Assembly (NCBI RefSeq): GCF_018143015.1
Contig: NC_054758.1
Coordinates: forward strand, 14,116,001 to 14,180,000
Source of the DNA: Lytechinus variegatus
Taxonomy: Eukaryota > Echinodermata > Echinoidea > Temnopleuroida > Toxopneustidae
DNA: 64,000 nucleotides
Reading direction: 5' to 3'
Of this stretch, positions 1-53,089 are shown piece after piece (the first letter of the stretch is position 1; the number at the start of each line of letters is the position of its first letter). The notes under the pieces were generated by a model. It ran no database searches and was not told the origin of the DNA. It was given only the letters and a program-made list of their open reading frames with translations. The position numbers were made by a program, and so were the translations under genes.

Positions 1-3000
1 TCACCATAATATGTGGTACCGTTTATTCTTTTTCAAAAACCTCCATTGAAACCTGCCTCACCTCCTTTTAAATTGGCTTCACCATCATTTGTAGTAGTTA
101 TAAAAAACTCCATTGGAACTTGCCTCACCTCCTTTTAAATTGGCTTCACCATCATTTGTAGTACAGTTATAAAAACCTCCATTAAAACTTGCCTCACCTC
201 CTTTAAAATTGGTTTCACCATAATACCAGTACAGTTTTTTAAAAACCTCCATTGAAACTTGCCTCACCTCCTTTTAAATTGGCTACACCATAATTTGTTC
301 TTTTTTAAAAACCTCCACTGAAACCTGCCTCGCCTCCTTTTAAACTGGCTTCACCATGATATGTGTGGTACATTTATTCTTTTTAAAAAACCTCCATTGA
401 AACTTGCCTCACCTCCTTTCAAACTGGCGTCACCATAATGTGTGGTACCCTTTATTCTTTTTAAAAAACCTACATTGAAACCTGCCTGACCTCCATTTAA
501 ATTGGCTTCACCATAATTTAGAGTACAGTTATAAAACCTCCATTGAAACTTGCCTCACCTCCTTTTAAACTGGCTTCACCATAATGTGTGGTACAGTTTA
601 TTCTTTTCAAAAAACCTCCATTGAAACTTGCCTCACCTCCTTTTAAATTGGCTACACCATAATTTGTTCTTTTTTAAAAACCTCCACTGAAACCTGCCTC
701 GCCTCCTTTTAAACTGGCTTCACCATGATATGTGTGGTACATTTATTCTTTTTAAAAAACCTCCATTGAAACTTGCCTCACCTCCTTTCAAACTGGCGTC
801 ACCATAATGTGTGGTACCCTTTATTCTTTTTAAAAAACCTACATTGAACCTGCCTGACCTCCATTTAAATTGGCTTCACCATATATAATTTAGAGTACAG
901 TTATAAAACCTCCATTGAAACTTGCCTCACCTCCTTTTAAACTGGCTTCACCATAATGTGTGGTACAGTTTATTCTTTTCAAAAAACCTCCATTGAAACT
1001 TGCCTCACCTCCTTTTAAATTGGCTACACCATAATTTGTTCTTTTTTAAAAACCTCCACTGAAACCTGCCTCGCCTCCTTTTAAACTGGCTTCACCATGA
1101 TATGTGTGGTACATTTATTCTTTTTAAAAAACCTCCATTGAAACTTGCCTCACCTCCTTTCAAACTGGCGTCACCATAATGTGTGGTACCCTTTATTCTT
1201 TTTAAAAAACCTACATTGAAACCTGCCTGACCTCCATTTAAATTGGCTTCACCATAATTTAGAGTACAGTTAATTATAAAACCTCCATTGAAACTTGCCT
1301 CACCTCCTTTTAAACTGGCTTCACCATAATTTGTTCTTTTTTAAAAACCTCCACTGAAACCTGCCTCGCCTCCTTTTAAACTGGCTTCACCATGATATGT
1401 GTGGTACATTTATTCTTTTTAAAAAACCTCCATTGAAACTTGCCTCACCTCCTTTCAAACTGGCGTCACCATAATGTGTGGTACCCTTTATTCTTTTTAA
1501 AAAACCTACATTGAAACCTGCCTGACCTCCATTTAAATTGGCTTCACCATAATTTAGAGTACAGTTATAAAACCTCCATTGAAACTTGCCTCACCTCCTT
1601 TTAAACTGGCTTCACCATAATGTGTGGTACAGTTTATTCTTTTCAAAAAACCTCCATTGAAACTTGCCTCACCTCCTTTTAAATTGGCTACACCATAATT
1701 TGTTCTTTTTTAAAAACCTCCACTGAAACCTGCCTCGCCTCCTTTTAAACTGGCTTCACCATGATATGTGTGGCACATTTATTCTTTTTAAAAAACCTCC
1801 ATTGAAACTTGCCTCACCTCCTTTCAAACTGGCGTCACCATAATGTGTGGTACCCTTTATTCTTTTTAAAAAACCTACATTGAACCTGCCTGACCTCCAT
1901 TTAAATTGGCTTCACCATAATTTAGAGTACAGTTATAAAACCTCCATTGAAACTTGCCTCACCTCCTTTTAAACTGGCTTCACCATAATGTGTGGTACAG
2001 TTTATTCTTTTCAAAAAACCTCCATTGAAACTTGCCTCACCTCCTTTTAAATTGGCTACACCATAATTTGTTCTTTTTTAAAAACCTCCACTGAAACCTG
2101 CCTCGCCTCCTTTTAAACTGGCTTCACCATGATATGTGTGGTACATTTATTCTTTTTAAAAAACCTCCATTGAAACTTGTCTCACCTCCTTTCAAACTGG
2201 CGTCACCATAATGTGTGGTACCCTTTATTCTTTTTAAAAAACCTACATTGAAACCTGCCTGACCTCCATTTAAATTGGCTTCACCATAATTTAGAGTACA
2301 GTTAATTATAAAACCTCCATTGAAACTTGCCTCACCTCCTTTTAAACTGGCTTCACCATAATGTGTGGTACAGTTTATTCTTTTTAAAAAACCTCCATTG
2401 AAACTTGCCTCACCTGCTTTTAAATTGGCTTCACCATAATTCAGAGTACAGTTATAAAAACCTCCATTGAAACTTGCCTCGCCTTCTTTTAAACTGGCTT
2501 CACCATGATATGTGTGGTACAGTTTCTTTTGAAAAAACCTCCATTGAAACTTGTCTCACCTCCATTTAAACTGGCGTCACCATAATGTGTGGTACCGTTT
2601 ATTCTTTTTAAAAAACCTCCATTAAAACCTGCCTCACCTCCTTTTAAATTGGCTTCACCATCATTTTGTAGTAGTTATAAAAAACTCCATTGGAACTTGC
2701 CTCACCTGCTTTTAAATTGGCTTCACCATAATTCAGAGTACAGTTATAAAAACCTCCATTGAAACTTGCCTCGCCTCCTTTTAAACTGGCTTCACCATGA
2801 TATGTGTGGTACAGTTTATTCTTTTGAAAAAACCTCCATTGAAACTTGTCTCACCTCCATTTAAACTGGCGTCACCATAATGTGTGGTACCGTTTATTCT
2901 TTTTAAAAAACCTCCATTGAAACCTGCCTCACCTCCTTTTAAATTGGCTTCACCATCATTTGTAGTAGTTATAAAAAACTCCATTGGAACTTGCCTCACC

Positions 3001-6000
3001 TGCTTTTAAATTGGCTTCACCATAATTCAGAGTACAGTTATAAAAACCTCCATTGAAACTTGCCTCGCCTCCTTTAAAACTGGCTTCACCATGATATGTG
3101 TGGTACAGTTTATTCTTGGTATACCTTTATTCTTTTGAAAAAACCTCCATTGAAACTTGTCTCACCTCCATTTAAACTGGCGTCACCATAATGTGTGGTA
3201 CCGTTTATTCTTTTTAAAAAACCTCCATTGCATGCAACCTGCCTCACCTCCTTTTAAATTGGCTTCACCATCATTTGTAGTAGTTATAAAAAACTCCATT
3301 GGAACTTGCCTCACCTCGATCCTTTTAAATTGGCTTCACCATCATTTGTAGTACAGTTATAAAAACCTCCATTAAAACTTGCCTCACCTCCTTTAAAATT
3401 GGTTTCACCATAATACCAGTACAGTTTTTTTCTTTTTAAAAACCTCCATTGAAACTTGCCTCACCTCCTTTTAAATTGGCTACACCATAATGTGTGGTAC
3501 CCTTTATTCTTTTTAAAAAACCTACATTGAAACTTGCCTGACCTCCATTTAAATTGGCTTCACCATAATTTAGAGTACAGTTATAAAACCTCCATTGAAA
3601 CGTGCCTCACCTCCTTTTAAACTGGCTTCACCATAATGTGTGGTACAGTTTATTCTTTTTAAAAAACCTCCATTGAAACTTGCCTCACCTGCTTTTAAAT
3701 TGGCTTCACCATAATTTAGAGTACAGTTATAAATCCTCCATTGAAACGTGCCTCACCTCCTTTTAAACTGGCTTCACCATAATGTGTGGTACAGTTTATT
3801 CTTTTTAAAAAACCTCCATTGAAACTTGCCTCACCTCCTTTTAAATTGGCTTCACCATCATTTGTAGTACAGTTATAAAAACCTCCATTAAAACTTGCCT
3901 CACCTCCTTTAAAATTGGTTTCACCATAATACCAGTACAGTTTTTTAAAAACCTCCATTGAAACTTGCCTCACCTCCTTTTAAATTGGCTACACCATAAT
4001 TTGTTCTTTTTTTAAAAACCTCCACTGAAACCTGCCTCGCCTCCTTTTAAACTGGCTTCACCATGATATGTGTGGTACATTTATTCTTTTTAAAAAACCT
4101 CCATTGAAACTTGCCTCACCTCCTTTCAAACTGGCGTCACCATAATGTGTGGTACCCTTTATTCTTTTTAAAAAACCTACATTGAAACCTGCCTGACCTC
4201 CATTTAAATTGGCTTCACCATAATTTAGAGTACAGTTATAAAACCTCCATTGAAACTTGCCTCACCTCCTTTTAAACTGGCTTCACCATAATGTGTGGTA
4301 CAGTTTATTCTTTTCAAAAAACCTCCACTGAAACCTGCCTCGCCTCCTTTTAAACTGGCTTCACCATGATATGTGTGGTACATTTATTCTTTTTAAAAAA
4401 CCTCCATTGAAACTTGCCTCACCTCCTTTCAAACTGGCGTCACCATAATGTGTGGTACCCTTTATTCTTTTTAAAAAACCTACATTGAAACCTGCCTGAC
4501 CTCCATTTAAATTGGCTTCACCATAATTTAGAGTACAGTTATAAAACCTCCATTGAAACTTGCCTCACCTCCTTTTAAACTGGCTTCACCATGATATGTG
4601 TGGTACATTTATTCTTTTTAAAAAACCTCCATTGAAACTTGCCTCACCTCCTTTCAAACTGGCGTCACCATAATGTGTGGTACAGTTTATTCTTTTTAAA
4701 AAACCTCCATTGAAACTTGCCTCACCTGCTTTTAAATTGGCTTCACCATAATTCAGAGTACAGTTATAAAAAACCTCCATTGAAACTTGCCTCGCCTCCT
4801 TTTAAACTGGCTTCACCATGATATGTGTGGTACAGTTTCTTTTGAAAAAACCTCCATTGAAACTTGTCTCACCTCCATTTAAACTGGCGTCACCATAATG
4901 TGTCGTACCGTTTATTCTTTTTAAAAAACCTCCATTGAAACCTGCCTCACCTCCTTTTAAATTGGCTTCACCATCATTTTGTAGTAGTTATAAAAAACTC
5001 CATTGGAACTTGCCTCACCTGCTTTTAAATTGGCTTCACCATAATTCAGAGTACAGTTATAAAAACCTCCATTGAAACTTGCCTCGCCTCCTTTTAAACT
5101 GGCTTCACCATGATATGTGTGGTACAGTTTATTCTTTTGAAAAAACCTCCATTGAAACTTGTCTCACCTCCATTTAAACTGGCGTCACCATAATGTGTGG
5201 TACCGTTTATTCTTTTTAAAAAACCTCCATTGAAACCTGCCTCACCTCCTTTTAAATTGGCTTCACCATCATTTGTAGTAGTTATAAAAAACTCCATTGG
5301 AACTTGCCTCACCTGCTTTTAAATTGGCTTCACCATAATTCAGAGTACAGTTATAAAAACCTCCATTGAAACTTGCCTCGCCTCCTTTAAAACTGGCTTC
5401 ACCATGATATGTGTGGTACAGTTTATACCTTTATTCTTTTGAAAAAACCTCCATTGAAACTTGTCTCACCTCCATTTAAACTGGCGTCACCATAATGTGT
5501 GGTACCGTTTATTCTTTTTAAAAAACCTCCATTGCATGCAACCTGCCTCACCTCCTTTTAAATTGGCTTCACCATCATTTGTAGTAGTTATAAAAAACTC
5601 CATTGGAACTTGCCTCACCTCGATCCTTTTAAATTGGCTTCACCATCATTTGTAGTACAGTTATAAAAACCTCCATTAAAACTTGCCTCACCTCCTTTAA
5701 AATTGGTTTCACCATAATACCAGTACAGTTTTTTTCTTTTTAAAAACCTCCATTGAAACTTGCCTCACCTCCTTTTAAATTGGCTACACCATAATGTGTG
5801 GTACCCTTTATTCTTTTTAAAAAACCTACATTGAAACCTGCCTGACCTCCATTTAAATTGGCTTCACCATAATTTAGAGTACAGTTAATTATAAAAACCT
5901 CCATTGAAACTTGCCTCACCTCTTTTTAAACTGGCTTCACCATAATGTGTGGTACAGTTTATTCTTTATAAAAAACCTCCATTGAAACCTGCCTCACCTC

Positions 6001-6100
6001 CTTTTAAACTGGCTTCACTATAATGTGTTGTACAGTTTATTTTTTTAATAACCTCCATTGAAACTTGCCTCACCTCCTTTCAAATTGGCTTCACCATGCA
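1..6100. repeat. Satellite array, ~70-78 bp monomers with ~360 bp higher-order structure
   Basis: The whole stretch is tandem copies of a monomer containing (plus strand) CCTCCATTGAAACTTGCCTC, then CACCTCC, TTTTAAA, TGGCTTCACCATAAT and a variable linker. Two linker types alternate: a longer one with GTGTGGTAC and TTTATTC, and a shorter one with TTTAGAGTACAGTTAT. A distinctive monomer variant with CCTCCACTGAAACCTGCCTCG recurs near 312, 673, 1052, 1345, 1726, 2087, 4018 and 4321. In the first 2.4 kb its spacing is 361, 379, 293, 381 and 361 bp, so about five monomers form a higher-order unit and one unit has lost a monomer. Divergence increases toward 5900-6100, where the array decays into unique sequence. 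The left edge is outside the window. Short ORFs on the minus strand are by-products of monomers whose length is near a multiple of three. Confidence 0.95.
2455..5850. repeat. ~2.3 kb internal duplication of the satellite
   Basis: The block around 2455-3540 recurs at about 4769-5850 with an offset of 2304-2315 bp. Rare private variants are shared, including an inserted CATGCA near 3228 and 5533 and a GATC insertion in the CACCTCC motif near 3318 and 5622. Shared private mutations show a recent copy event of many monomers at once, as expected from unequal exchange or replication slippage. Confidence 0.85.
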
Positions 6101-7225
6101 GGTATATTCCATTGTTTTTAAAAAAAACATTATTGTTCACTTCCCTTACTTAGATCAATTGGCTATAATTATACACTATTCTTCCCTTACAAAAAGAAAA
6201 CCTGATTGTACTCCAGCCTCCCCTGATCTGACATTTGCCTCTATTACAGTATACGTCTACTGTACATAGAGTAATTATCTCTTTATATCGGAAACTTCGT
6301 TTAACCGAATTGCCATGCACTCTCTCCCACGCGGACAGCATGGAATAGTACACACACGTTATTGACAACTTCTCTCTGGAGCCAATGTTCCTCTCATATA
6401 ACTCTCTGCATGCATGCACTTCTGTGTGCATGTTTGTATGGAACACACACGACCACAATCTAATGAATATTCATCGGCGAGAGTGACGTCATTTTACGAG
6501 TGTCCTTTCAAACTGAAGTATTAAGTCTCGCCTACCCAGAGAGTCAACTAAATGAATCTAGAAATTAAAATCACGATGTCCCTAATTGCCCACTCAGTGA
6601 TCCGCCAGGCATGATCTCGGCCTACTTACCTTTTTTTCCTTTTGGAAAGAACACTCACAAACACCATAGTAAGCACGGCGCATCTCACTGCACTTTGGTA
6701 AAGTCGAGTAAAAAAGTTGAGTAAAAAACAGGCACGATGACGGCATTTGTGCGGTCCCTGAATGCTCTTCGGGGAGGTATCTCTTGTAGGTTCAACGCAG
6801 AGATCGGTAAGATTTTGAATAGATTTACAAACTTGATTATAAGTACTCAAAATTGAGAAAATCATACCTAAATGTGCATTAAATTTAGCAGATTTCGGCT
6901 CAGTCCCACATGTAGACCAAAAGCTTCGGTCTCTTGTCATGTTGGTTGTTCAGCTGAACTCCGTTTGGCTTCACTCACCAAATACAGAGACCGAAGTTCT
7001 AGCGCGATCTGTACAGGGGACTCAATGGCCATATGTTTATGTACTTAAGATCGGATAAAACGGGGAAGTGAATTTGCGCGACAGTCGAGGGAAGTCACTG
7101 TTTTTGTTCCTTTTAACATGTTTAATTCTCAGTTTTTTGGCAATCAATGCCAAGGCAAGAGGGAATAGGCCTATTACTTTGCATTTTGGTTGTGTTAACT
7201 TTCAAATTTTTTATTCATTTTAAAG
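6101..7225. other. Unique intergenic sequence, no gene recognised
   Basis: I find no protein motif, RNA gene or clear repeat here. Two minus-strand ORFs of about 100 codons (6150-6458, 6626-6940) show no recognisable domain and no supporting splice structure, and I do not call them genes. The last seven bases, TTTAAAG (7219-7225), are the left target-site duplication of the neighbouring transposon. Confidence 0.6.
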
Positions 7226-7240
7226 TAGGGTGTCTGGACG
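7226..7240 (+). repeat. Left terminal inverted repeat of the 8.1 kb transposon
   Basis: TAGGGTGTCTGGACG, the exact inverse of 15305-15319. It directly follows the TTTAAAG target duplication. Beyond 15 bp the two ends diverge. Confidence 0.85.
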
Positions 7241-10200
7241 TTTTTCAGAAATCACCTATTTTGTGAATTTAATCACTGTCTCGTAGCAGAAAGTGAAGAG
7301 AATATCTTAAATAACATGTAAATCAAGTTTCATAACTCACAAGCATTTAAATCCAGAGATATTTGCTTCTAAAGTTTGGCATATTTTCAGATCAAAACGC
7401 AAGCGATATCACACCGATAGTGGCACATTTTGCTTGACCGAAAACACACACAGAACTGCTATACGCCGCATTGAAGGGGCGGAGTTGAAAGGGCGCGCAG
7501 TACGATCATTACCGCTTGGGTTGTCAAGTTTGCCTTTCAAATACGCAACTTTACAACTGCTCATGAATAATGCGTTCGTAGACGGACACGTTTAGGTCAC
7601 TGCTCTAGTTGAAAGGTCACAGATACGTCACAATAGAGATTACTGGTACTCGTATAATGGCAATGCATAAACCATCGGACTTGCAATTAGTACATGTATT
7701 ATGTGCACACAATAATGGTGTGTGAATGTATGTGATTTACGTGCACCGTGCCGTACCGCTATCCCTGATATTATGCAATTGCCATTGTTTTTGTGTACCA
7801 CCAGGAATTCCCTGATTCAGTGATTGTGTGTGCGACGGCAACCCACGTGCAGCATGGAGTGATGCATCTATAGAGACATTTAGTATACATCTCTATGGAG
7901 TGATGAGTCATTAATATGACGTACCAGAATGACATTGCAATACGTCATAGTAATGTCTTATCCACCATAGGCGGCGAAGCGGGGGGGGGGGGGGGGGGGG
8001 GGGCTGGGGGTGGCGGCGGGGAACAGGTTCTCTCCTTAATTTGAGGTGGATGGTTTCCCCTAAATTTTAGTTGATAATCTGTTTTAGTTGATCTATTTTT
8101 TTTCTGCTTGTCAATTTTATTTCTTCCGACTTCATAACGATCATGATTGCTGATTTGATTTATACCCCCCCCTCACCCCACATACATAGAAGTCTTACGT
8201 TATTTATCATCATTGTCAACCACCATCGAACACGCGTCACGCACTATGTCATTTTTTTATAGGGCAATTTCATAAAATGTACCTTCAACCCTCTACATTT
8301 GGGATCTTCATTAAGTTTTCTATCTCTATAAATTTTGGGTTCTTTAACGCTGTCAACTGACCATGACTTGGCCATTTTATTAAGTGATGTAAAACTTTAG
8401 AAAAATGGGGGTCGAATGTACAAAGAGCTTGATCATTTTATGGAATTGCCCATTATTCAAACCATCATGCAATCATAACCATACACACCCAATCGTACAT
8501 CATCACCTTGAGTTCATTTATCACAAAGGCCAGTCATCATCGTGAATCCATTTCATCACTTAGGGGGAAAAAAGGAAATAGTCATTAAAACCATGCATTG
8601 TGGAAAGAAATGTAGCATTGATTTTCTTGACTTTTTTCTCTGTTAGTATATTCATCACACGGAATGTCATAAAACCATAAACATCCACATCCACACTTCA
8701 TTCCATGCAGGCAAATCATCTCCATCAAAACACACTTCATCATGATGCATTATGTTTACCATCATTTTTAGATGCACAATTCAAGATGAAAATATAACTT
8801 TATTCTACTTTTCTTTATTTCAGATTTATTAGGAAACGATCAGGGGTTTCGATCGTCGGACCTAAGAAATGAGAATCAGCGAGAACTCAAAATAACACGC
8901 GTATATAGACCTTGTATTTCTGTTTTCTTGTCAACTGTTCAAGTCATCTTTATTCTAAAATCGAGTTGACATATATATGCTGTTTCATTTAATGATGTTA
9001 ACTCACAAAATGACGAAATATTACCAAGTGAGATATTATAAACCGTTCACAATTGTAATAATTATGTCCACAAGGTTTTTCTGAAGAATCTGTAGATAAT
9101 ATACGACTGAGAGTAACTGCCTCAATATTTTGTCAACTTTCAATTAGGGAAACATTGAACACATGAACTACCATACGCATTATTCTTTGCATGAAAATTG
9201 CTGTATTATTTGGAAGTTCAGCTAAATATTAAGCATAATTTGGGACATGACGTGGTTATCATAAATAGGCCTTTCAAGCCACTTGCTTAATATCTCTCAT
9301 TGTATTGTGTTTTCTGTATCCCCAATTATTAATTTTCATAACATTGAGTTCCCCATGAAATTGGCGGCATCACAGATCGATCACCGCAAGGGGCTTACAG
9401 AGTGTATAGTTTATATACCTTTCATACCGTTATGACTCTATATACATTCATATAGACTCCTTATCACGGAGTATATAATTATCGTATCATAATGGCCATA
9501 CAGCCGAGGCAATAATAGGTTATGAAAAACAGTATCCCTACCCGACTGCTCTACCTTATTTTGTTAACATATATACATATTATATATTTACACAGGCATT
9601 TATTCATTTACAAAAGTCAATACATTTATAGAATAAACTCGTCGTTCTATAAGAGTAAAAGTTCTGTTCAATATGTGCATAATTCACGCAATTGATTACT
9701 TCGTAATTACTGCGTAAGGGCCTATACTCCCAATTGAGAATGTTCAAAATGTATAATTATATTTGCCAAGAGCTTGCTTGATTACTGCTGTGTTGTATAA
9801 TAAATAACAAAAAGAGCTCCAGTGTTGACAGTCTTCGGTTTATACTTATACCGCGTTGACCTTCCACCACAAGATAACAACTTGCTGAACTCAAAAGGTA
9901 AGTCCACTCTTCATGCTCTTTATTTTTGAGCGTCTGTTCAACTATAATTATAGCTCTCATATGGCTGCATGAATTGTGTTTACACTAAATTCATATTTAC
10001 AAATAAAGCGTTCACACGTGGGTTCATGATGATCATTACGTCAAAGGTCATCTATTGGTCAACATTATCATGTTGTAAATATGCAATATCAGGCGAGACC
10101 ACAGACCCGTGAACGACCATGTTCATGAATGGATGTTTATAGCAGAACAAAAAGATCAGTCACTATTTTCTCCTTCCGGAAAAATAAATGTAATCGAGCA

Positions 10201-10344
10201 CTCATTGCAACTCGATATTCAATACTAGTATATAGGAATATGTTATAATAACTACGTAGTTATGTTCCTTTTTATAATTCCATGTACTGCAATCAAGTAT
10301 ACATTGTAACTCGATTTATGCAGCCATAAAGCTATATTCATATA

Positions 10345-10375
<31 letters not shown>

Positions 10376-10454
10376 CACTTGCTGTTTTCTTGCATTTATT
10401 AAAATAAGCTCATTCTGGCAATTATACCTTATATAATTCGATTTATAGGCCCAA
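7241..10454. other. Non-coding 3' region of the 8.1 kb transposon
   Basis: I find no convincing gene in these 3.2 kb. The stretch includes a run of 23 G at 7981-8003, a GT/AT microsatellite at about 10344-10374, and one member of an 18 bp inverted-repeat pair at 9536-9553. On the minus strand an AATAAA signal (plus-strand TTTATT near 10395-10400) lies about 55 bp past the transposase stop and could terminate its transcript. A 67-codon minus ORF at 9757-9960 has no recognisable features. Confidence 0.55.
9536..9553 (+). repeat. Inner 18 bp inverted repeat, left copy
   Basis: CCCTACCCGACTGCTCTA matches 14526-14543 in perfect inversion. The similarity continues weakly inward through a T-rich stretch ending near GTTAAC/GTCAAT. 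The pair brackets the ORF symmetrically but has no matching target duplication, so I read it as subterminal repeats or the ends of an older nested unit. Confidence 0.7.
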
Positions 10455-13400
10455 CTAAACTTTCTCAAAAATTCGCACATCTCCTTTCCAATAATCTTCC
10501 AGCAATGCTCCCTCCCATGTATTTTCTTCGTCATCGCTTTCATCATTTAAACTCTCGTATTCCACCTTGCAAGTTTTATCTACACCATAGCCATCTTCTG
10601 CCTCAACTACATAACCGGTAAACCATACCTTTGCGTTGTCTACTTCCCATTTGTGTCTTATCTTATACCCTACTAATTCTCTTGCTGATATATCTTTAAC
10701 ATACATATCCCCACTGTTCAAGTCTTCAACTACATCATTTTTGGGATACGAGTATACAGTTTGTGTATTGGACAAATAGACAAAATTCATCGACTCATTG
10801 TTTTTACTGAGGACGAATGCGGAGTACCAATTTTCTCCTTCATCATCTTCTGTTAAATGTTGAACAATTTTACCAACTAAATCATTGTACTCCACGTGTC
10901 GGCCTCTTTTTACTCTTTTTCTTGACTTGTTTTCTATCTCAGATCTCTTCCTTTTCATTTCTTCTTTGAACTGGTATACCCTCTCCTCTGGTGCGAGCAG
11001 GATTTCCTCTACTTCGTTGTCATCCTTGTCAATCTCTTGAGTTCTTTCTCTGCTCCTTCTCACGACTGAAATCAACTGTTCCTTTAACTCCTCCCAAGTC
11101 TTCACTCTGCCCCTTTCTGTGAAATTGAAGATACCTTCTGTGTTTTTCTCTCCGAACACATATCGTCTAGCTTTCAATTGTACTTTCAGCATTTCCAATT
11201 TAATGTCATTGTTCTTCCTAGCGAGTCCTTGATCTATTTCATCTTCTGACATCCATATACCACCACATACATTTCTGACTTCCTCATATATATTTTCCTT
11301 TCTTACCGTTTCCTTTTCTTCTTTTTGGACCTTGCTATCTCTCCTTTCTCTTACTTTTTTCTCCCTTTCTTCCCAAATTTGCTTCGCCCTCTGACAATAT
11401 TCCTTTCTTTGCTTGACAACATGCTTTCTAGCTATACTCATGTACTCCGCCCTTTTCTCTTCTTCCAATTCTCTGACCCATTGGTTTGTATTGTTCTTAG
11501 TGTACATTATAATGCTTTCCACTGCATAAATACTCGCCCTTGGCTTCTCTCTCATTATTCTATCCATCATTCCGAAATCTCTTTCAACGGACACATTTGT
11601 CTTAGGTACCCCACTAACTTCGTTTTCATTAACATCACTATAATGAGAAGAAATGTGCTCCCCAAGAAGCCTACTCGTAATCATGACATAACTACTGAAT
11701 ATAAGTTCGAGAACTTGTTTTGTAACTGCATCGTCTCCTGTGAGAAGTGATTCATATACTTCATCTCTTTGAACTGGTATATCGTGGAATAACACGGCTG
11801 TGCCGTCCAGTAATGGCGATGAGTCGACTGCCCATTCTTCAAATTTTGACAACATGATCTTGTATCTTTCGTCCATTGTCGTTATTTTCTCCTTACCCTC
11901 CAACACTCGCCACAATGGGGCTGTTACAAACTTATTTACGAGGCCTAAAGCCCTACAACCAGTTAAAAACTGGGGAACATTTATATCTGAGTCAACTGCT
12001 TTAATTAATAAGTTGTCTTCCCTATGATCTGCAAAGAAATCCTGTAAATCGTGTCTTAAATAATAAACACCTCCTCCATTGTGAAATAAAATATTAAATC
12101 TATTACCCTTAAAGGGAGCTAACGGAATTAACGTTTTGCCCCTTTCCTTCAGAAATGCTCGGAAATGTACGGGCTTCCCTGATTTTTCACATCCTCTGTC
12201 TTGAATCGATTTACACACCGTTCTTACTAACCGTACTACACCACCTTCTCCACCTTTTGGCGCCACTCCAACCTTCTGTGCCCCTACCTGTTCCCCATTA
12301 AATATCATATCTTCCCACACTTTCAACGTTTGCCCCGCCTGATCTGCCAATCCGACTATAAAATGTAATCCGCAAAAGTAATTATTCATTTTTGAAAGTG
12401 ATTCCCTTTCCAGGTCTGATAATTGTGCCCACTCTCTAACAACTGCTGGCAATATCTCTCTCCTATAATTTTGTAGTAGTTCATTGAATTTCTTCTGTAC
12501 TATGTGCCTATCACTGATTGTGTTTTTTATTCTTTTAATTACATTATTTATCTTACTTCCATCATTAGTAACCAAACATACATCTTCTATTACCGTCTTC
12601 ATTGTTTCTAACATTTCCTCCGCTGTACCTCCAACCCCTGCTCTGACGCCTAATACCAAACACTCCCCACTACTTAAATGAATATCATACGCCCCATAGT
12701 GATGACCATACTTGGTCGTACCATCTCCTCCAACTGTCATATCAACCTCCTTCTCATCTAAGATTTTATTTGCCGCTTGTATTAAACTGAGCGCTCTGGC
12801 TTCCATATACATAGCAGATCCAAAATCCTTCTTTGGTACAGACTTAATATTTACATTACAGAGCCCTTCTAGTACAGTTTTCACAACCTCACCACCTTTC
12901 CTTGTACTAACACCCATTGAACAAACTAATTCTTGTACTACTGAACGAACTTCATCACTGTATCTCCCTCCTTCCTTTAACTCAACAACGTGCGAATCTG
13001 CCTTCAATCTTTCTTCTAATTTGTTGATCTTATCAGTCATTTTTTCCATTTTCTTTTTCATTCGATTGTTTTCTTTTCTAAGCATGTAATTAATCTTGTT
13101 CTTCGCTTTCAAATAACTTCGGCTCTGTTGCCTTCGTCTTACTAAGTCACTGTCTCTTCTCACAATTTTTTTAAGCATGAATATTCTATTCTCAAGGCTA
13201 GTGATTACTTTCCTTTTTTTGCACAATTCTATGTTCAATCTTATGATGGTTTCTTTTCTAACTTTCATCGCATTCAACATCCTATCATTCCGCTTCTTTA
13301 TATTCCTATTTTTAGCACATGCCTTTACAAACCTTACGCTGCATGCATCTATTTTTTCTTCAAGTTTTTCAATTTTTTTCTTCAACCTTAAAACAACTTT

Positions 13401-14168
13401 CTTCATATATGATGCATCTACTTTAAATCCACTTCTCTGACGAGGTCTAACACAGTTCCGTCTACACTGACGGCACACCCTTGAATTGGTACTCTTTCTG
13501 AATTCTATTCTGATATTTTTTTTCTGTTTCTTTTTCATTTCTTTTCTAGCGAACACAAACACATCATCCATTATACCTTCATTCTTGTTTACTCTTTTCT
13601 TGTTTCTTACACTATCACACAAACTTCTTATCTTTTTGTACAAATTCTGATTTGAGATTAGCGTCGTATCTACATCAAAAAAACCTTCTAATAGAACCTT
13701 AAATTGTCCAGTCGTCATATCTCTCTTTCTTCCCCATGAAAATAATTCTATGACAGCACCGTTTGTGAGACCCTCCCATCCAATCTTTTCCCTATTATAT
13801 TCTCCACACAACACGGCCTGTACATCTTCCTCGTAAATTCCCAAACTATTACAAAATGACCCTATTTCTGACAATGTTTTGAACTCTTTAGTTTTTTCAT
13901 TACCCCTCCCCTGATTACATTTTTTTTCGGCCTTTCTTTTCAAATTACCCAGATGGACGTGATGGTATTTATTGTTTGGAAACATATTTACATACGACAG
14001 CAGACAGTGCTGCCGTGACTCATCGCGAGGTCTTTGCTGCTCGGCATCATAGTAATCGAAAAAATGCTTGATGTCTCGATATCGGAGACAGGGATCATCT
14101 TTATTGGGCCTACAGTTGTAACATGAGGTTGCGAATGATCGTGAATCCGACATGGTATGATGGAGCAA
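10455..14168 (-). CDS. hAT-like DDE transposase with coiled coil and two Tudor-like C-terminal repeats
   Basis: A single-exon ORF of 1237 codons. The start may be residue 1 or Met6 (MSDSRSF). Seen in order: a Cys-containing N-terminus (C16xxC19, C27); a basic region with C232xxC235 and C239; a long Lys/Arg/Glu coiled coil at about 250-395; an RNase H-like core with D482 (GGDGTTKYG), D553 (SDRHIVQKKFN), C599xxH602 (CGLH) and E862 (VERDFG); a charged helical segment at 895-950; a basic Lys/Arg stretch near 1070-1090; and two related modules at about 1097-1157 and 1165-1235. Each module has LVGxxIxH, an aromatic W-Y/F, a Y/V-rich strand and an acidic VEDL/LEDYWxGD end, resembling SH3/Tudor-type barrels. 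A large insertion between the second Asp and the Glu, the CxxH pair and Glu followed by R-x-F are known hAT traits. Similar long proteins recur, in my memory, among unnamed marine-invertebrate predictions. It sits inside matching inverted repeats and a target duplication. Superfamily and reader function are inferences. Confidence 0.8.
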   Translation of the reverse strand: MLHHTMSDSRSFATSCYNCRPNKDDPCLRYRDIKHFFDYYDAEQQRPRDESRQHCLLSYVNMFPNNKYHHVHLGNLKRKAEKKCNQGRGNEKTKEFKTLSEIGSFCNSLGIYEEDVQAVLCGEYNREKIGWEGLTNGAVIELFSWGRKRDMTTGQFKVLLEGFFDVDTTLISNQNLYKKIRSLCDSVRNKKRVNKNEGIMDDVFVFARKEMKKKQKKNIRIEFRKSTNSRVCRQCRRNCVRPRQRSGFKVDASYMKKVVLRLKKKIEKLEEKIDACSVRFVKACAKNRNIKKRNDRMLNAMKVRKETIIRLNIELCKKRKVITSLENRIFMLKKIVRRDSDLVRRRQQSRSYLKAKNKINYMLRKENNRMKKKMEKMTDKINKLEERLKADSHVVELKEGGRYSDEVRSVVQELVCSMGVSTRKGGEVVKTVLEGLCNVNIKSVPKKDFGSAMYMEARALSLIQAANKILDEKEVDMTVGGDGTTKYGHHYGAYDIHLSSGECLVLGVRAGVGGTAEEMLETMKTVIEDVCLVTNDGSKINNVIKRIKNTISDRHIVQKKFNELLQNYRREILPAVVREWAQLSDLERESLSKMNNYFCGLHFIVGLADQAGQTLKVWEDMIFNGEQVGAQKVGVAPKGGEGGVVRLVRTVCKSIQDRGCEKSGKPVHFRAFLKERGKTLIPLAPFKGNRFNILFHNGGGVYYLRHDLQDFFADHREDNLLIKAVDSDINVPQFLTGCRALGLVNKFVTAPLWRVLEGKEKITTMDERYKIMLSKFEEWAVDSSPLLDGTAVLFHDIPVQRDEVYESLLTGDDAVTKQVLELIFSSYVMITSRLLGEHISSHYSDVNENEVSGVPKTNVSVERDFGMMDRIMREKPRASIYAVESIIMYTKNNTNQWVRELEEEKRAEYMSIARKHVVKQRKEYCQRAKQIWEEREKKVRERRDSKVQKEEKETVRKENIYEEVRNVCGGIWMSEDEIDQGLARKNNDIKLEMLKVQLKARRYVFGEKNTEGIFNFTERGRVKTWEELKEQLISVVRRSRERTQEIDKDDNEVEEILLAPEERVYQFKEEMKRKRSEIENKSRKRVKRGRHVEYNDLVGKIVQHLTEDDEGENWYSAFVLSKNNESMNFVYLSNTQTVYSYPKNDVVEDLNSGDMYVKDISARELVGYKIRHKWEVDNAKVWFTGYVVEAEDGYGVDKTCKVEYESLNDESDDEENTWEGALLEDYWKGDVRIFEKV

Positions 14169-14438
14169 TATACTGGCAAGTCAATTTTTTTTGCAAGATT
14201 AAACTTAATCTATACAAAATTTGAGACCAAACCTATTATTGACTTGCAGTTGCACGAACGGCCGGATATGTGGACTTGCGGAAGTATGAGGGCGTTGAGG
14301 CTGAGTAACGGGCTGGTACTCGGGTGCGTAGACGAAGAACGCGGGAGGAGAAAACCGGAGAAGCACAGCCACAGAATATCAAAGAAAGGGATGATATATC
14401 ACGAAATATTGATGATCCGAGTAGCAAAGACCTCGCGA
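14023..14438. repeat. Inverted duplicate of part of the transposase 5' end
   Basis: TCGCGAGGTCTTTGCTGCTC (14023-14042) continuing to 14050 is matched in inversion at 14412-14438 with a few differences, and weaker similarity extends outward. One arm lies in the coding region near codons 40-49, the other about 260 bp upstream of the start. A transcript beginning further upstream could fold here. Confidence 0.6.
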
Positions 14439-15304
14439 ATCGCAATTACATCACACTCGATGTACAAATCAGTGGATGCTTGAAGAACAACACACTCGAT
14501 AAAAAGAGTGAAATTGACAAAAATATAGAGCAGTCGGGTAGGGAAATCCTCTACACAAAACATGCACAAATTATATGAACATAAAATCTCAACGTTTACA
14601 CATATCGTCAATGAATGCACACACAACAACAACACAACCGCGTGGTATTTCTCATCATAGCCAACGTACATGTTCCACCTCTACACACAAACATTCACAC
14701 ACCAAGTCGTAGTCATGCGGACTCCACATTCACTCATGTGTTTTCAAACTCGCGCGCTTGTGCTCACGTGGACGGCTTGCCGCGAATTTGCATATGATGC
14801 AAATTAATTTGGGATTTACGCGCTCTACGTATGGCTTCGTTGTCAAGAAAATAGACGCGTACGCCACGCCTCTAGATTTCGCTTGTCTGCACAAGGGTAT
14901 TTTCAAATTGATTTTGCATTGTGATCTCGTGTAATCAGCTCAAAACTGAGTGCACCATCGAAATCAGCGATCCCGGAAATGCTTAAGTCCAGCTGGACAA
15001 GTTTGTAGCAACCTCGATCGCTGTGCTGTCGAAAGGGTAAGCAGCAATTTCGTATTATCTTGACTTCATGATATAAGAGAAAACTTGTCCTTAGAAGCAT
15101 ATTATAGGAAATTTAATTCCCTTTCGAACCATATCATTTTTGTTTTTAAAAAATGATCAGATCACAATTTTCTGAGCTTTCAAAGGGGACCTTGTATTCA
15201 AAAAGTGTGTGCCATTTTCGCTTCAGTACGCGACGCGCATTGCCGTGCGTGTATTAGGTATGGGCAAAGAGCTCCCGCAGCTATCGCTGAGGCTATCGTT
15301 TGAT
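14169..15304. other. 5' region of the 8.1 kb transposon
   Basis: The minus-strand leader and presumptive promoter region of the transposase. It contains the inner inverted repeat (14526-14543) and the inverted duplicate at 14412-14438. I cannot point to a definite TATA box. Several overlapping short ORFs on both strands (14157-14797) show no recognisable protein. Confidence 0.5.
14526..14543 (-). repeat. Inner 18 bp inverted repeat, right copy
   Basis: TAGAGCAGTCGGGTAGGG, the inverse of 9536-9553. It lies about 360 bp upstream of the transposase start codon, where it could serve as a protein-binding site or mark the end of an inner unit. Confidence 0.7.
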
Positions 15305-15319
15305 CGTCCAGACACCCTA
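15305..15319 (-). repeat. Right terminal inverted repeat of the 8.1 kb transposon
   Basis: CGTCCAGACACCCTA, the exact inverse of 7226-7240, followed at once by the second TTTAAAG (15320-15326). Confidence 0.85.
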
Positions 15320-15501
15320 TTTAAAGACAAAAATTAAGGAGCCCCGACGGGGGGATTTTGCATTGCAAGTCCCCTAATGGTGGCTGCACGATAGCGAGCC
15401 GTCGCCGTCTGTGTACGAGGAGAAATAAAAAAAATAAAATGTTAAAAAAACTCCTCGAAACAGACGGCTGCCAGCTGTCTATCCCACATGTAGAGTTTCC
15501 T

Positions 15502-18231: not shown

Positions 18232-18553
18232 CTACAAATATATTGGACATAAAGTAAATGGAAATATCTGTATATCCATCCATATTATGCACAATGTGAA
18301 CATTCATTAGAGTTGGACTACAATATCAACATTTTTATAATTGAAAAGCACACTGTAATTAGCACTAAATCTCATTGTCCCATGGTCTTTTGGCATTTTG
18401 TTTTTATCTTATAGAGTATGTTTTCAGGTTATCTGGAGTACTTATTTGATAAAAGGGTTTACTGGGTGATATTCCAAAAGCCTCTTGCCGAAAAATTGAA
18501 AAAGGAAAAAAGAAAGGAAAAAGAAAGAGAGAGAGAGAGAAAAAAAATCTTAC

Positions 18554-18917
18554 ATTGGATCCTCTCTGATGACGCAACTGATTGAACCAGGTATGGCCGG
18601 ATTAATTCAAATTTGTTCAGAATCCATTCCTGTCTTGCTGTTCGCTCTGCAGCACCAGATCCTGACTTGCGAGATGTCTTGATGAGTCTGGAAAACAGGG
18701 TTCTCATGTTGAGATACCAAATCGATGACAGATCTCCGGGATTCAAGTCCAATGCGTCCTTCTTTTCCCGCCATGTCCTGCTCTTTTTTTCTCTCATTTT
18801 GAACTGGGCAGATGACTTATCGTACAGAAAGGTGTGCTCCCTCAGCCACGTCACGAGATCGTCCTCTTCATCCTGAGTGAGCATTCGACGCATGGACTTC
18901 CGGGTTTTGAATTCAGT
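18554..18917 (-). CDS. MADF-domain exon
   Basis: Bounded by acceptor TTATTCAG| (18918-18919) and donor CCAAT|GTAAGA (18552-18553). The encoded segment has the MADF pattern: LVTWLREHTFLYDK near the start (cf. LI..v..rp.LyD), then WREKKDAL, a central region, and LFSRLIKTSRKSGSG before a downstream helix with WILNKFELIRPYL. MADF domains are Myb-related DNA-binding modules; in Harbinger elements the second protein helps nuclear import and DNA recognition of the transposase. The reading frame is intact. Confidence 0.7.
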
Positions 18918-19206
18918 CTGAATAAAATCAATGTTCATAAATTATAGGCCTACCACTGTAAATGATCATTCATTCTCTCTTTCTCTCTCTCTCTCTTGGG
19001 GGCGGGTATATTACAAGGAAATTATACATTTATTTATTTTTTTGCCACTTGTGGGACGGAAGCACCCTCATCAGCAAAAGATGCTGTTTTTCATAGGGGT
19101 CCACGTTTAATGTATAAGGAATTTATAGAATTGCTCTTACTGATATTTTTTTATATACAAAAGTAAAAAGAAAAAAAAATGCATCAATACAAGTATTTAG
19201 GCCTAC

Positions 19207-28699: not shown

Positions 28700-29384
28700 A
28701 GTGTGAACAGGCCTACTCCAATCATCTACATCTATCACTCCGATGTTACAACCACAATGAAACATGTCATGACTACTTCTTCCATCTTCAATGTAAATAT
28801 AATACAGGAATAGAAAAGCTTAGTTGACTTACGATAAAGACGTTGACAAAATGTGAAAAAAAAATTAAAAAGATGTAAAATAAAAGAAAAAAATAAATAA
28901 AAGTATGATAAAAAAGAGTCTGTAATATGAATAATAATTCATGCCAAAGAATCATTCATAATGCCAATCCTATAACATGTTCATGTAGCTTGGAAATCTC
29001 TTTTTAACCAATTCTTCTATGTATTCAGTTATTAGCTATCTATGCTTTCTCTCTCTCTCCTTTCTCTCTTGGTGATGTGTTCGTATTCTTCAAAAAGGGT
29101 TCTTATCAGTATCACTTGTCTTTTTTTGTAAGGGGGCAGGTGTGAGCTTAGGCCATTAACTAATTTGTCTTGACTATTTATTTGAATATCAAAACAAAAT
29201 TCACAGTCAAATGAACATTCAAATAGTAAAAAAAGTGCAATTTTGAAAAAGGGTGCAATTTTGATTCATAGTGAGCTATTCAAATGGTATTAATATTTGA
29301 ATAGTATTTTCATGCCAAGAGCACAGAGTTCTTAGTACAATGCCTCTAAGCACTGCATAGTAATACACTGACGTTAGCACGGCA
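28700..29384. other. MRPL21 intron sequence, nothing recognised
   Basis: A+T-rich, with a CT-rich stretch near 29050. No gene or clear repeat. Confidence 0.45.
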
Positions 29385-29475
29385 ACCCTGATCGATCCGT
29401 CAAGGGATTCCTTCTTACTGGTTACCCATTTACTACACCTGGGTGGAGGGTGGCAAATTCGTATATATCATCATA
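29385..29475 (-). mobile_element. SINE fragment (central/3' domain)
   Basis: Contains ACCCATTTACTACACCTGGG and TGGAGGGTGGCAAAT on the plus strand, the same block as in the SINE at 32270-32545. The tRNA head is missing. It lies just upstream of the MRPL21 core exon. Confidence 0.7.
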
Positions 29476-29541
29476 AACACATGGAAAAAGAGCTACATTA
29501 TATGAATGCATGTAATATTGTCATTGATATCTGTATTGTAG

Positions 29542-29696
29542 ATGTGCTGTCAGCAGTGAGGAGCGATATTAACCAAGGGAGAATGTTTGCAATCGTCTAT
29601 ATATCAGGCGCCCAGCACAAAGTGACGACAGGCGACCTTGTTCTCCTTCAGAACCACATCAAGGCCGACGTAGGAGATAGAATCAGATTAGAAAAG
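29542..29696 (+). CDS. MRPL21: MRPL21 exon (core bL21 fold)
   Basis: Acceptor TATTGTAG| and donor GAAAAG|GTAAGA. It encodes DVLSAVRSDINQGRMFAIVY and then ISGAQHKVTTGDLVLLQNHI, KADVGDRIRLEK. This matches the bL21 core: an F-A-V/I-V strand, a Q-x-K-V motif, the G-D/E-x-I-x-L-E-K strand. Bacterial L21 and human MRPL21 have the same order. A SINE fragment lies immediately upstream (29385-29475) and a GAT-rich repeat immediately downstream. Confidence 0.9.
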
Positions 29697-29709
29697 GTAA
29701 GATATGTTG

Positions 29710-30600
29710 ATGAGGAGGAGGATTATTGTGAGGAGGGAGGGGGTAGGGGAGGAGGGAGAGGAAGGGGGGATAGAATGATGATGATGGGATCATTAGGAAC
29801 AGGATATGATAATGATGATGGTGGTGGTGGTTGTGATGGTGCTGGTGATGGTGATGGTGATGGTTGTGATGATGAAAGATATTGTATGTTTGAATTTGCC
29901 AGTGCCATTATGAGGCTGTGATGAATGCAAGGAATGCTCCCCAGGGAGTGACAATTGTGCTCTTTTCAAGCGGGATTGAAATGAGTCCTATGACCGGGGT
30001 AATAATATGCTGTATAGCGCTTTGAGCCATACTCGGAAAAGAGTGATATAAAAATTGGCTATTATTTTGATGATGATTATGGTGATGATGGTGATGATAA
30101 TGATGATGATTATAATGATGGTGATGACGATGATGATAATGATGATGATGGGATTATTAGGAACAGGATATGATAATGATGATGGTGGTGGTGGTTGTGA
30201 TGGTGCTGGTGATGGTGATGGTGATGGTTGTGATGATGAAAGATATTGTATGTTTGAATTTGCCAGTGCCATTATGAGGCTGTGATGAATGCAAGGAATG
30301 CTCCCCAGGGAGTGACAATTGTGCTCTTTTCAAGCGGGATTGAAATGAGTCCTATGACCGGGGTAATAATATGCTGTATAGCGCTTTGAGCCATACTCGG
30401 AAAAGAGTGATATAAAAATTGGCTATTATTTTGATGATGATTATGGTGATGATGGTGATGATAATGATGATGATTATAATGATGGTGATGACGATGATGA
30501 TAATGATGATGATGGGATGATTATGATGATGGGATGATGATGATGATGGGATGATGATGATGCGATGATGATACGGATGATGATGATGATAATGATGTGG
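29710..30600. repeat. GAT/GGT microsatellite with a 364 bp tandem duplication
   Basis: GATGAT- and GGTGAT-rich DNA. The segment from about 29787 to 30150 is repeated at 30151-30515 (offset 364 bp), including the non-repetitive part with TATAGCGCTTTGAGCCATAC and GAGTGATATAAAAATTGGCT, which resembles the 3' tail of interspersed elements. The two copies are nearly identical. ORFs across it are repeat artefacts. It lies in an MRPL21 intron. Confidence 0.9.
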
Positions 30601-48218: not shown

Positions 48219-49514
48219 GTAGGTGATAGGCCTATATACTTAACATCAATATCAGACAAATTTCCGTGTAGGCCCTAGTTGAAAGAAATTGATTGGGGAG
48301 CATGGGGTAGATCAGTGATATATTTATGTTCAAAATAATATTCGGGTTTATTTGAAGACTAAAAATATATTATCTTGTATAACAACCTCGTCGACTAGTG
48401 TTTTAAGACTAGGCCCATAGATGAGAAGCCGAAAGAAGGGGGGGGGGGGGGGCTGGGGTACCCTATATAGCAACTAAGGATAATTAAGTCCAAATCTATC
48501 ATAAATTATAATCAATATTTCTTTTTTGAATAGGTCTTGTGTTAGGAATTCACTGTTTCTTTTTCTGTTTTGTTTCGCATGATAGAGAAATTTAATGTTA
48601 ATAACTTTGGTGGCACGAATTTAGCTATTCACTTTGATAGAAGTGAATAATCCCCCCCAAATTAGAATATCTTTTGCAGTTTTCATGTACACCGCGAGCT
48701 CCCTTAGTTTTTTCTGAACTTTATTTTCCACCCCCAAAACCTTTTTGCATTCATCAACTAGTTTGGGGTGCTAAGTTGTAGACATACCCTACACTCTTAA
48801 AATAGTTGGGCAAAAAAAATGCCCAACTTTTAACCAACCCTGGGCACCATACTGTCCTCAAAACTATTGGTTAAAATCAGTCAAACTGAGTAATGAAAAC
48901 TAATAATTATAGGAATAAATTTTGCTCAATTGGATAATAATTACCCAGAATATATATATTTACCAACATACATTACCCAACACAGTGGACAGTATGTGGC
49001 CCAACATTTTAAGTGTGTAAGTGTGCACCCGCCTTTTCGAACGCAAAAATGAATGTACCCTTACAGGTCGCAAACAGGTACAACATTTTTACCTCTGTAT
49101 CACTAACGGCAGGGGCCTGGGAACTATTTTTACTGGGAGTGCAGAGTTTTCACTGAAAAAATGGAGGCCATTTTGGTAGCGAGGAATTTGAAAAGCAAAA
49201 AAAAAAGGTTTTTAGTACAAATGGACGTCATTTTTGGTAACATTTTTATTCATCTTTCAGAAGACATGGGGTTTCTGTCTGTGGAGAATAATACACGCGT
49301 CACCCCCAAAGAAATTTTTATAGGTGCTTTAGACCCCCGCTTCCCAGGTTCATGACCAAGGGTGCAAAATTGCACCCCAAAATGAATTGTGCGACAAGTT
49401 TCGCATTTACTGTATTTAGGGTGCAAAGTTAATTTATTCTTAATATGTTTATACGGCAATCCTTATCAAGGATTCAGCATTTACAGTCATAATTCCCTTT
49501 CTTCCATATTGCAG
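48219..49514. other. ST8Sia gene A intron 2
   Basis: No separate gene. It contains a run of G at 48438-48452 and the left edge of the segmental duplication (48602). GTTGGGCAAAAAAAATGCCCAAC at about 48802-48826 is a short hairpin present in both duplicate units. Confidence 0.7.
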
Positions 49515-50048
49515 AGACAGAGTTTCAAAGCGATTAAAGAAATGGCAAATCATCCAAATCTACAAGACGGACGTGAAACCGGAAGACTTTGATTTCCAAG
49601 TCAATGAAACTTTGTTGCTTCGGGATGGTAAAACAGAATCGATTCCTGCGCAACAGACATGCGCAGTAGTTGGAAACTCTGGAATTCTTTCCAATAGTTC
49701 CTGTGGGAAGATGATTGATAGTCATGATTTTGTCTTTAGGATGAACCTGTCTCCATTTGGTTTTAAATATGGCAAGGACGTGGGATACAAAGCTAATATC
49801 ACGACGTTAAATTATTCACAACTGAAGTCTGCGGCTAAGTGTGCAAAGAAACATTTTCCTAACATATCTGTTGGATGTCAGGATATGTTGACAAATTTGA
49901 AATTGTATAACAATTCTGTGGTATGGTACCCGAAAGGAGGTTCTCGTCAAGGAAACATGAATGTTTTATCACGAGGAATGATCGATAACTTCACTTTTAA
50001 CGCCAGATGGGCTTATAGTCCCGCCAGCTTGTTTGGTGTTGTGCCCAG
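49515..50048 (+). CDS. ST8Sia gene A exon 3 (sialylmotif L)
   Basis: Acceptor TATTGCAG| and donor CCCAG|GTAAGT. Sialylmotif L runs from [17 protein letters not shown] through [15 protein letters not shown] to [11 protein letters not shown]. It binds the CMP-sialic acid donor; the VVGNSG loop and the S-x-C-G Cys are intact. Numerous sequons (NET, NSS, NLS, NIT, NYS, NIS, NNS, NFT) suggest heavy glycosylation. The exon starts [11 protein letters not shown], a common lead-in to the ST8Sia catalytic domain. Confidence 0.92.
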
Positions 50049-50319
50049 GTAAGTGTTAAAAGGGCGAGGTGATGATAATCACACCATCGATGTAGAAACG
50101 AAATGGATAGAGCAATGATGCTCTGTGTTTGAGGCCACCGGAAACGCTAAAAAGTACTCCAAATATTAAACTCCTAATAACTTTCTTAATTTTTGATAGA
50201 TTTGCTTCAAATCTTAACCAATAGTTTTAATTTTTCCCTAACGTCGTCAGATATCCTTTTTGTGTGTGCAATCATCGGTAGAAATATAAAGTCATGCTTT
50301 TAGCTAAACAATAGCCAAC

Positions 50320-50852: not shown

Positions 50853-52281
50853 TCAGGAGAGCATACGTCTTTCATGGAACATATAATATAGTCAACGGTT
50901 TTCACTGGCTAATTTTCCCCGAACCAATCCAATTTGGTTATTTCCGCAGCTTATAACAACCGTCAGTATAACTTGCTGACAATTGTTTGCATGAAATGCT
51001 ACACGGAAACAAAGCAGAATAGTTGATTCATGTTTTTCACAAGTTGCCATAAATCTTGCAAGGAAACTCCCTTAGACTTAAAAAAAAATTCCTTCATCAC
51101 TTTTCTAGACAGCTTTATTCCAAACTCAAATTGTTGACGCCCTCTACGTTTTATTTGGTGCCTCTATCATGTACGTTCACTTTATGGAACTTGTTGGTTT
51201 CGGATGACTGAAATATATTTATGCAAAATTACAATTATTATTTACAGAAATAAATGAGACGTGCCGACACTTACTCGCTAACCTTACCTGTTTGAATGAA
51301 TACAGTGCGTTCACTATGCTAAAAGTTACCAGTGTGAAAACAATTTCACAATTTTCACAATTTTATAACTTTGGTGGCACGAATTTAGCTATTCACTTTG
51401 ATAGAAGTGAATAATCCCCCCAAAAAAATTAGAATATCTTTTGCAGTTTTCATGTACACCGCGAGCTCCCTTAGTTTTTTCTGAACTTTATTTTCCACCC
51501 CCAAAACCTTTTTGCATTCATCAACTAGTTTGGGGTGCTAAGTTGTAGACATACCCTACACTCTTAAAATAGTTGGGCAAAAAAAATGCCCAACTTTTAA
51601 CCAACCCTGGGCACCATACTGTCCTCAAAACTATTGGTTAAAATCAGTCAAACTGAGTAATGAAAACTAATAATTATAGGAATAAATTTTGCTCAATTGG
51701 ATAATAATTACCCAGAATATATATATTTACCAACATACATTACCCAACACAGTGGACAGTATGTGGCCCAACATTTTAAGTGTGTAAGTGTGCACCCGCC
51801 TTTTCGAACGCAAAAATGAATGTACCCTTACAGGTCGCAAACAGGTACAACATTTTTACCTCTGTATCACTAACGGCAGGGGCCTGGGAACTATTTTTAC
51901 TGGGAGTGCAGAGTTTTCACTGAAAAAATGGAGGCCATTTTGGTAGCGAGGAATTTGAAAAGCAAAAAAAAAGGTTTTTAGTACAAATGGACGTCATTTT
52001 TGGTAACATTTTTATTCATCTTTCAGAAGACATGGGGTTTCTGTCTGTGGAGAATAATACACGCGTCACCCCCAAAGAAATTTTTATAGGTGCTTTAGAC
52101 CCCCGCTTCCCAGGTTCATGACCAAGGGTGCAAAATTGCACCCCCAAAATGAATTGTGCGACAAGTTTCGCATTTACTGTATTTAGGGTGCAAAGTTAAT
52201 TTATTCTTAATATGTTTATACGGCAATCCTTATCAAGGATTCAGCATTTACAGTCATAATTCCCTTTCTTCCATATTGCAG

Positions 52282-52815
52282 AGACAGAGTTTCAAAGCGA
52301 TTAAAGAAATGGCAAATCATCCAAATCTACAAGACGGACGTGAAACCGGAAGACTTTGATTTCCAAGTCAATGAAACTTTGTTGCTTCGGGATGGTAAAA
52401 CAGAATCGATTCCTGCGCAACAGACATGCGCAGTAGTTGGAAACTCTGGAATTCTTTCCAATAGTTCCTGTGGGAGGATGATTGATAGTCATGATTTTGT
52501 CTTTAGGATGAACCTGTCTCCATTTGGTTTTAAATATGGCAAGGACGTGGGATACAAAGCTAATATCACGACGTTAAATTATTCACAACTGAAGTCTGCG
52601 GCTAAGTGTGCAAAGAAACATTTTCCTAACATATCTGTTGGATGCCAGGATATGTTGACAAATTTGAAATTGTATAACAATTCTGTGGTATGGTACCCGA
52701 AAGGAGGTTCTCGTCAAGGAAACATGAATGTTTTATCACGAGGAATGATCGATAACTTCACTTTTAACGCCAGATGGGCTTATAGTCCCGCCAGCTTGTT
52801 TGGTGTCGTGCCCAG
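52282..52815 (+). CDS. ST8Sia duplicated exon 3' (sialylmotif L)
   Basis: Copy of 49515-50048 with few differences (for example SSCGRMID for SSCGKMID). All motif L residues are intact. The donor is CCCAG|GTTAGT, where the first copy has GTAAGT. If not spliced, the frame runs 23 codons further to a stop at 52883-52885, which would remove motifs S, III and VS. There is no nearby copy of exons 1-2, so use requires splicing from exon 2 at 48158 or a new promoter. Confidence 0.85.
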
Positions 52816-53089
52816 GTTAGTGTTAAAAGGGCGAGGTGATGATAATCACACCATCGATGTAGAAACGAAATGGATAGAGCAATAATGCTCTGTTTTTGAG
52901 GCCACCGGAAACGCTAAAAAGTACTCCAAATATTAAACTCCTAATAACTTTCGTAATTTTTGATAGATTTACTTCAAATCTTAACCAATAGTTTTAATTT
53001 TTCCCTAACGTCGTCAGATATCCTTTTTGTGTGTGTAATCATCGGTAGAAATATAAAGTCATGCTTTTAGCTAAACACAATAGCCATCT

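Follow-up and report, generated by a model that had tools for sequence, protein, structure and literature searches.

Structure of the element

The window, that is, the whole 64-kb stretch of DNA analysed, contains an 8.1-kb transposon in which one long gene lies between perfect inverted ends (Table 1). The ends TAGGGTGTCTGGACG, the flanking TTTAAAG duplication, and the open frame bore out the original prediction of a complete element with 15-bp perfect inverted ends, a 7-bp duplication, and an intact gene. When registers up to 4 bp from the ends in Table 1 and lengths of 4–11 were tried, the longest direct repeat at the flanks was 7 bp, and no register within these limits gave an 8-bp duplication. 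On comparison of the terminal 400 bases of both ends, matching at length was confined to the first 15 positions. A further inverted pair of 19 bp (7716–7734/14686–14704; E 0.44) lies approximately 490 bases in from the left end and 615 in from the right. Outside the two ends, TAGGGTGTCTGGACG had no match in the 64 kb with up to three mismatches allowed, and the joined flanks, queried as an empty site within the window, yielded no match spanning the junction.

Table 1 Positions of the element and its features in the window
Feature	Coordinates	Strand	Basis or remark
Whole transposon	7226..15319	.	8094 bp; perfect 15-bp inverted ends and 7-bp duplication
Left terminal inverted repeat, TAGGGTGTCTGGACG	7226..7240	+	Exact match
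Right terminal inverted repeat, copy of TAGGGTGTCTGGACG	15305..15319	-	Exact match
Target site duplication, left copy, TTTAAAG	7219..7225	+	Direct repeat flanking the element
Target site duplication, right copy, TTTAAAG	15320..15326	+	Direct repeat flanking the element
Transposase gene, 1232 aa, one exon	10455..14153	-	Uninterrupted ORF
D477, proposed first catalytic Asp	12723..12725	-	Position observed; role inferred
D548, proposed second catalytic Asp (alternative, D531)	12510..12512	-	Hermes alignment would favour N530/D531
CGLH, CxxH motif, residues 594–597 (C594–H597)	12363..12374	-	Sequence
E857, proposed catalytic Glu, aligned with Hermes E572	11583..11585	-	Pairwise alignment
Lysine-rich coiled-coil stretch, about residues 240–395	12969..13436	-	Sub-threshold coiled-coil family matches and composition
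C-terminal Tudor/Agenet-like pair, about residues 1085–1232	10458..10901	-	Sub-threshold profiles and internal similarity; weak
AATAAA poly(A)-like signal	10395..10400	-	About 55 bases past the stop codon
MITE-like piece, 190 bases, bounded by 18-bp inverted repeats	8262..8451	.	Probably nested
Hairpin-like palindromic stretch, 78 bases, 76% self-complementary	7893..7970	.	Self-comparison

The element is almost certainly a cut-and-paste DNA transposon. A single copy was examinable, which leaves some room for the ends and the gene to be unrelated, with chance repeats surrounding an unrelated gene. However, a 15-bp inverted plus 7-bp direct identity within 20 kb is expected only ~7e-5 times per window (a rough estimate assuming equal base frequencies), and the gene between the ends carries DDE-like motifs and a CxxH; we find this reading hardly credible.

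The duplication includes TTAA, and a Kolobok element inserted into TTAA was considered, the 7-bp repeat then being TTAA plus chance matches. In the excerpted text of PMC9587614, C/DxxH is common to five superfamilies, including Kolobok, which produces TTAA duplications and has RR...YY ends; the transposase described here has C/DxxH in common with it. A 4-bp register starting at 7224 and ending at 15320 is possible, but its ends read AG...AT rather than RR...YY, its inverted repeat is imperfect at the tips, and three extra matching bases would be needed by chance. A Kolobok origin is very unlikely.

Transposase gene and proposed catalytic motifs

The minus-strand frame is open from stop to stop for 1241 codons (10455–14180), the chance of which at the local composition is ~1e-37. 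The uninterrupted ORF of 1237 codons originally predicted is intact, but its start is TTG; the first ATG is at 14153 (context ATACCATGT), from which the protein has 1232 aa. Residues are numbered here from this ATG, 5 lower than in the prediction (D482, D553, and E862 become D477, D548, and E857).

The motifs D477, D548, CGLH, and E857 occur in the predicted order. Their D-D/D-E spacing is 71/309, compared with 68/324 in Hermes, whereas the distance from the second Asp (D548) to the CxxH is 46 residues here and 17 in Hermes. The first Asp begins DGT, where Hermes has DLW; the Trp two residues after this Asp is absent. W613 sits 65 residues past D548 and Hermes W319 sits 71 past D248, a likeness that may serve only as a lead. 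The order and the Hermes-like distances of the predicted motifs were retained, but the second Asp is ambiguous. D548 is our first choice solely on account of a D-D distance of 71 and an apparent likeness to relatives, and D531, within VTNDGSKINN, is a real alternative.

The motifs also bear on Dada, a superfamily that has 6–7 bp duplications and targets small RNA genes. According to the excerpted text of PMC3706591, Dada elements measure 4.7–11 kb and carry CxxH/DxxH, so that duplication length, element size, protein size, and this motif all agree with the present element. On the other hand, the same excerpt describes Dada-U6 and Dada-U1 as lacking terminal inverted repeats, which are perfect here, and places Dada elements with clear ends in small RNA genes, whereas no Rfam family matched in the 64-kb window. 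It further gives a D-E distance of 176 for Dada-U6_DR, as against 309, and introns for Dada genes outside Perkinsus, as against none. With one Cys in residues 1001–1232, the C-terminus here cannot form a CCHC finger. Assignment to Dada is accordingly highly improbable.

Comparison with Hermes and profile searches

The Hermes sequence was obtained from the PDB using generic hAT stretches as queries. Aligned against all 1232 residues, the Hermes Glu segment scored best at residues 849–882, with E572 on E857, and this score was reached in 9 of 1000 shuffles for the whole protein and, for residues 801–900, in 4 of 2000. The ungapped segment scored 39 at the E857 site and 11 at the next best position. 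In a single comparison using phmmer, the segment matched the transposase with E 0.017, and a generic hAT stretch also aligned at the E857 site (23/1000 and 5/2000 shuffles). This likeness lends modest support to a putative hAT-like identity. The position of E857 is not independent evidence, because this resemblance may already have guided the choice of the residue in the original prediction.

The Hermes D-D segment was not significant against the whole protein: 185 of 1000 shuffles reached its score, as did 76 of 1000 when gaps were made cheaper. When the alignment was limited to residues 461–610, the corresponding counts were 31 and 5 of 2000. Hermes D248 aligned with N530/D531, and the best phmmer domain for this segment was at residues 152–180.

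The Pfam hAT dimerisation model PF05699 recognised the Hermes segment as a positive control and matched neither the whole transposase nor its fragments. The same profile had no match in one viral record and 14 control genomes, an uninformative set. For a BED zinc finger, residues 1–240 gave no Pfam family at E up to 10. The predicted hAT-like character was thus supported only in part, by the Glu motif and the D-D/D-E spacing, but not by PF05699, BED, the D-D segment, or the 7-bp duplication.

Pfam returned three families for the whole transposase, every one below cut-off, and no listed match of the seven fragments reached its cut-off (for the coiled-coil fragment, among the best 25 of 30). A CUT domain within residues 440–900 (E 0.17) was discarded as below cut-off. 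For P element, KDZ, and MuDR, for which Pfam models presumably exist, no transposase family was among the matches listed for the whole protein and the seven fragments, again with the best 25 of 30 for the coiled-coil fragment and with a sensitivity limited by the HMMER filters. A PDB sequence search with residues 780–900 gave no match at E up to 10. An AlphaFold model of the catalytic region (residues 380–920), made without an alignment, had a mean pLDDT of 35.5, too poor to use.

These results also bear on whether the element falls outside hAT proper, in an unnamed lineage of its own within the C/DxxH group (which comprises hAT, P, MuDR, Kolobok, and Dada); it would still act by cut and paste. 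Such a lineage would combine the 7-bp duplication with a catalytic core split as in hAT, an extended coiled coil, and, at the C-terminus, a tandem Tudor-like pair. The absence of a Pfam transposase match to the whole protein or its fragments argues for it, as do the duplication length, DGT in place of DLW, and the long extra C-terminus. Conversely, the D-D/D-E spacing is Hermes-like, and the Glu motif is closest to Hermes among the sequences compared, which did not include P, MuDR, or Kolobok transposases. We consider a separate lineage possible, but the less probable reading, and the transposase is probably a divergent hAT-like variant.

Coiled coil and C-terminus

E857 is followed by 375 residues that end in two weakly detected Tudor/Agenet-like repeats. 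In the last 173 residues, Agenet reached 20.4 bits over two stretches (cut-off 27), and Spin-Ssty and RBB1NT were weaker. The two C-terminal halves, cut by eye, resembled each other with a score of 48, which was reached by 2 of 2000 shuffles. An AlphaFold model of residues 1086–1232, also made without an alignment, had a mean pLDDT of 44.2, too poor to decide on a Tudor-type pair. When this model was compared with the PDB by Foldseek, 608 matches fell within E 10 but none within E 0.001; Spindlin1, which we take to be a Tudor-type protein, ranked third at E 0.4, by itself no evidence. A Tudor-type pair at the C-terminus is plausible, though unproven.

Over the coiled coil, NCBIfam gave two matches below cut-off. 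Two PDB sequence matches were attributed to chance or composition: Myc over the coiled coil (E 0.19), the sole match of the whole protein, and ferritin for the C-terminal 173 residues (E 0.26).

Non-coding part and surroundings

As predicted, approximately 3.2 kb of the element downstream of the gene, on its left, appears non-coding: among the ORFs listed there, none exceeds 76 aa, and the one of 76 aa overlaps the gene end. Since the AATAAA signal closely follows the stop codon, most of this part is probably outside the transcript. Judging from the palindromic stretch and the MITE-like piece, some of its length may be due to nested insertion. The element may be young, as originally predicted: its frame is intact, although hairpin- and MITE-like pieces occur in its non-coding part. 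A run of 23 G (7981–8003) also lies in this part. Two pairs of inverted copies were found inside the element, 14023–14044 with 14417–14438 (22 nt at 95%, E 8e-4) and 9535–9560 with 14519–14544 (26 nt at 88%, E 0.01), and in both pairs one arm falls within a shared 130-base stretch upstream of the gene. Gap repair may have left them as templated filler DNA.

Just left of the element lies a satellite array of approximately 6 kb (1–6097) with nested periods of 21, 66–78, 146, 224, and 295 bp. To the right, an ORF with a MADF DNA-binding domain (18459–18938, minus strand; 25.3 bits, cut-off 22) may serve another transposon as its helper gene. At 29364–29918 and 29774–30549, a ribosomal L21 piece (32.2 bits) runs at its end into a 364-bp tandem duplication (97%). 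Two near-identical sialyltransferase (GT29) pieces, 49444–50049 and 52211–52882, lie about 2.8 kb apart as a local duplication. Together with the long satellites and the lack of an Rfam match, the GT29 and L21 pieces are what animal nuclear DNA would be expected to contain. Arrays of a 15-bp minisatellite with a unit like AGAGGTAAAAATGGC occur as two pairs (42645–42896/43687–43796 and 61079–61303/61894–62158), each in inverted orientation with arms about 1 kb apart. The arrays of both places match one another at about 82–96% in both orientations, and the pairs resemble the termini of a small non-autonomous element.

Searches for relatives

Pattern searches gave 4, 0, and 17 matching stretches in a viral contig collection and 24 in a genome contig collection, none of which was confirmed, and degenerate patterns had no matches in either. 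The end sequence TAGGGTGTCTGGACG was found at two loci of the viral contig collection, judged likely chance. A tblastn search of phages and plasmids with the transposase gave no match. The absence of relatives means little, because these collections are not meant to contain animal genomes.

In the literature, no description of such an element was found among titles and the starts of abstracts, a search that did not extend to Repbase and does not exclude publication. The end sequence itself appeared in no paper found, and shorter versions of it appeared in two papers, on BDNF mice and on zebrafish sleep. Long animal proteins annotated as uncharacterised, with a similar Glu region and a Tudor-like C-terminus, may be common among fish and marine invertebrates. 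In that case, the transposase would belong to a widespread but poorly labelled family, which tempers its novelty.

Proposed mechanism and comparison with known transposons

Here, we lean towards an autonomous animal cut-and-paste transposon whose single gene encodes a 1232-aa DD(E) transposase; within the C/DxxH group, this enzyme would most resemble hAT. In the proposed model, the N-terminal part and the coiled coil would serve DNA binding and multimerisation. An RNase H-type core (D477, D548 or D531, and E857), interrupted ahead of the Glu by a putative insertion of approximately 300 residues as in Hermes, would cleave at the TAGGG ends and, if truly hAT-like, leave hairpins on the flanking DNA. 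The ends would then be joined to target strands 7 bp apart, giving the 7-bp duplication observed. More speculatively, the C-terminal Tudor/Agenet-like pair may anchor the complex on chromatin. To judge from the sequence, the element would work by cut and paste of the hAT type; membership in hAT itself is not established.

The lack of a Pfam transposase match to an intact transposase shows that the family models now available have a gap. Should histone marks be read by the Tudor-like end, chromatin targeting would be built into a natural DNA transposase, and, if the separate lineage is true, a chromatin reader on the transposase itself could guide the insertion site. An integrase of hAT-like type producing a 7-bp rather than an 8-bp duplication would, in addition, shed light on how active-site distance sets the duplication length.

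Compared with Hermes, the transposase shares the Glu motif, a CxxH, and the D-D and D-E spacing, and differs in the greater distance of the CxxH from the second Asp. The excerpted text of PMC4763223 describes hAT transposons with 8-bp duplications and a C-terminal hAT domain, and names W182 of Hermes, the Trp after the first Asp, in place of which DGT is present here. In that of PMC3517528, hAT elements have 8-bp duplications, ends of 5–27 bp, and a length below 4 kb. The 15-bp ends of the present element are within this range, whereas its duplication is 7 bp and its length 8094 bp. Finally, the protein differs from hAT (Hermes) in its length of 1232 aa, its lack of a BED or Pfam hAT match, and its putative Tudor-like C-terminus.
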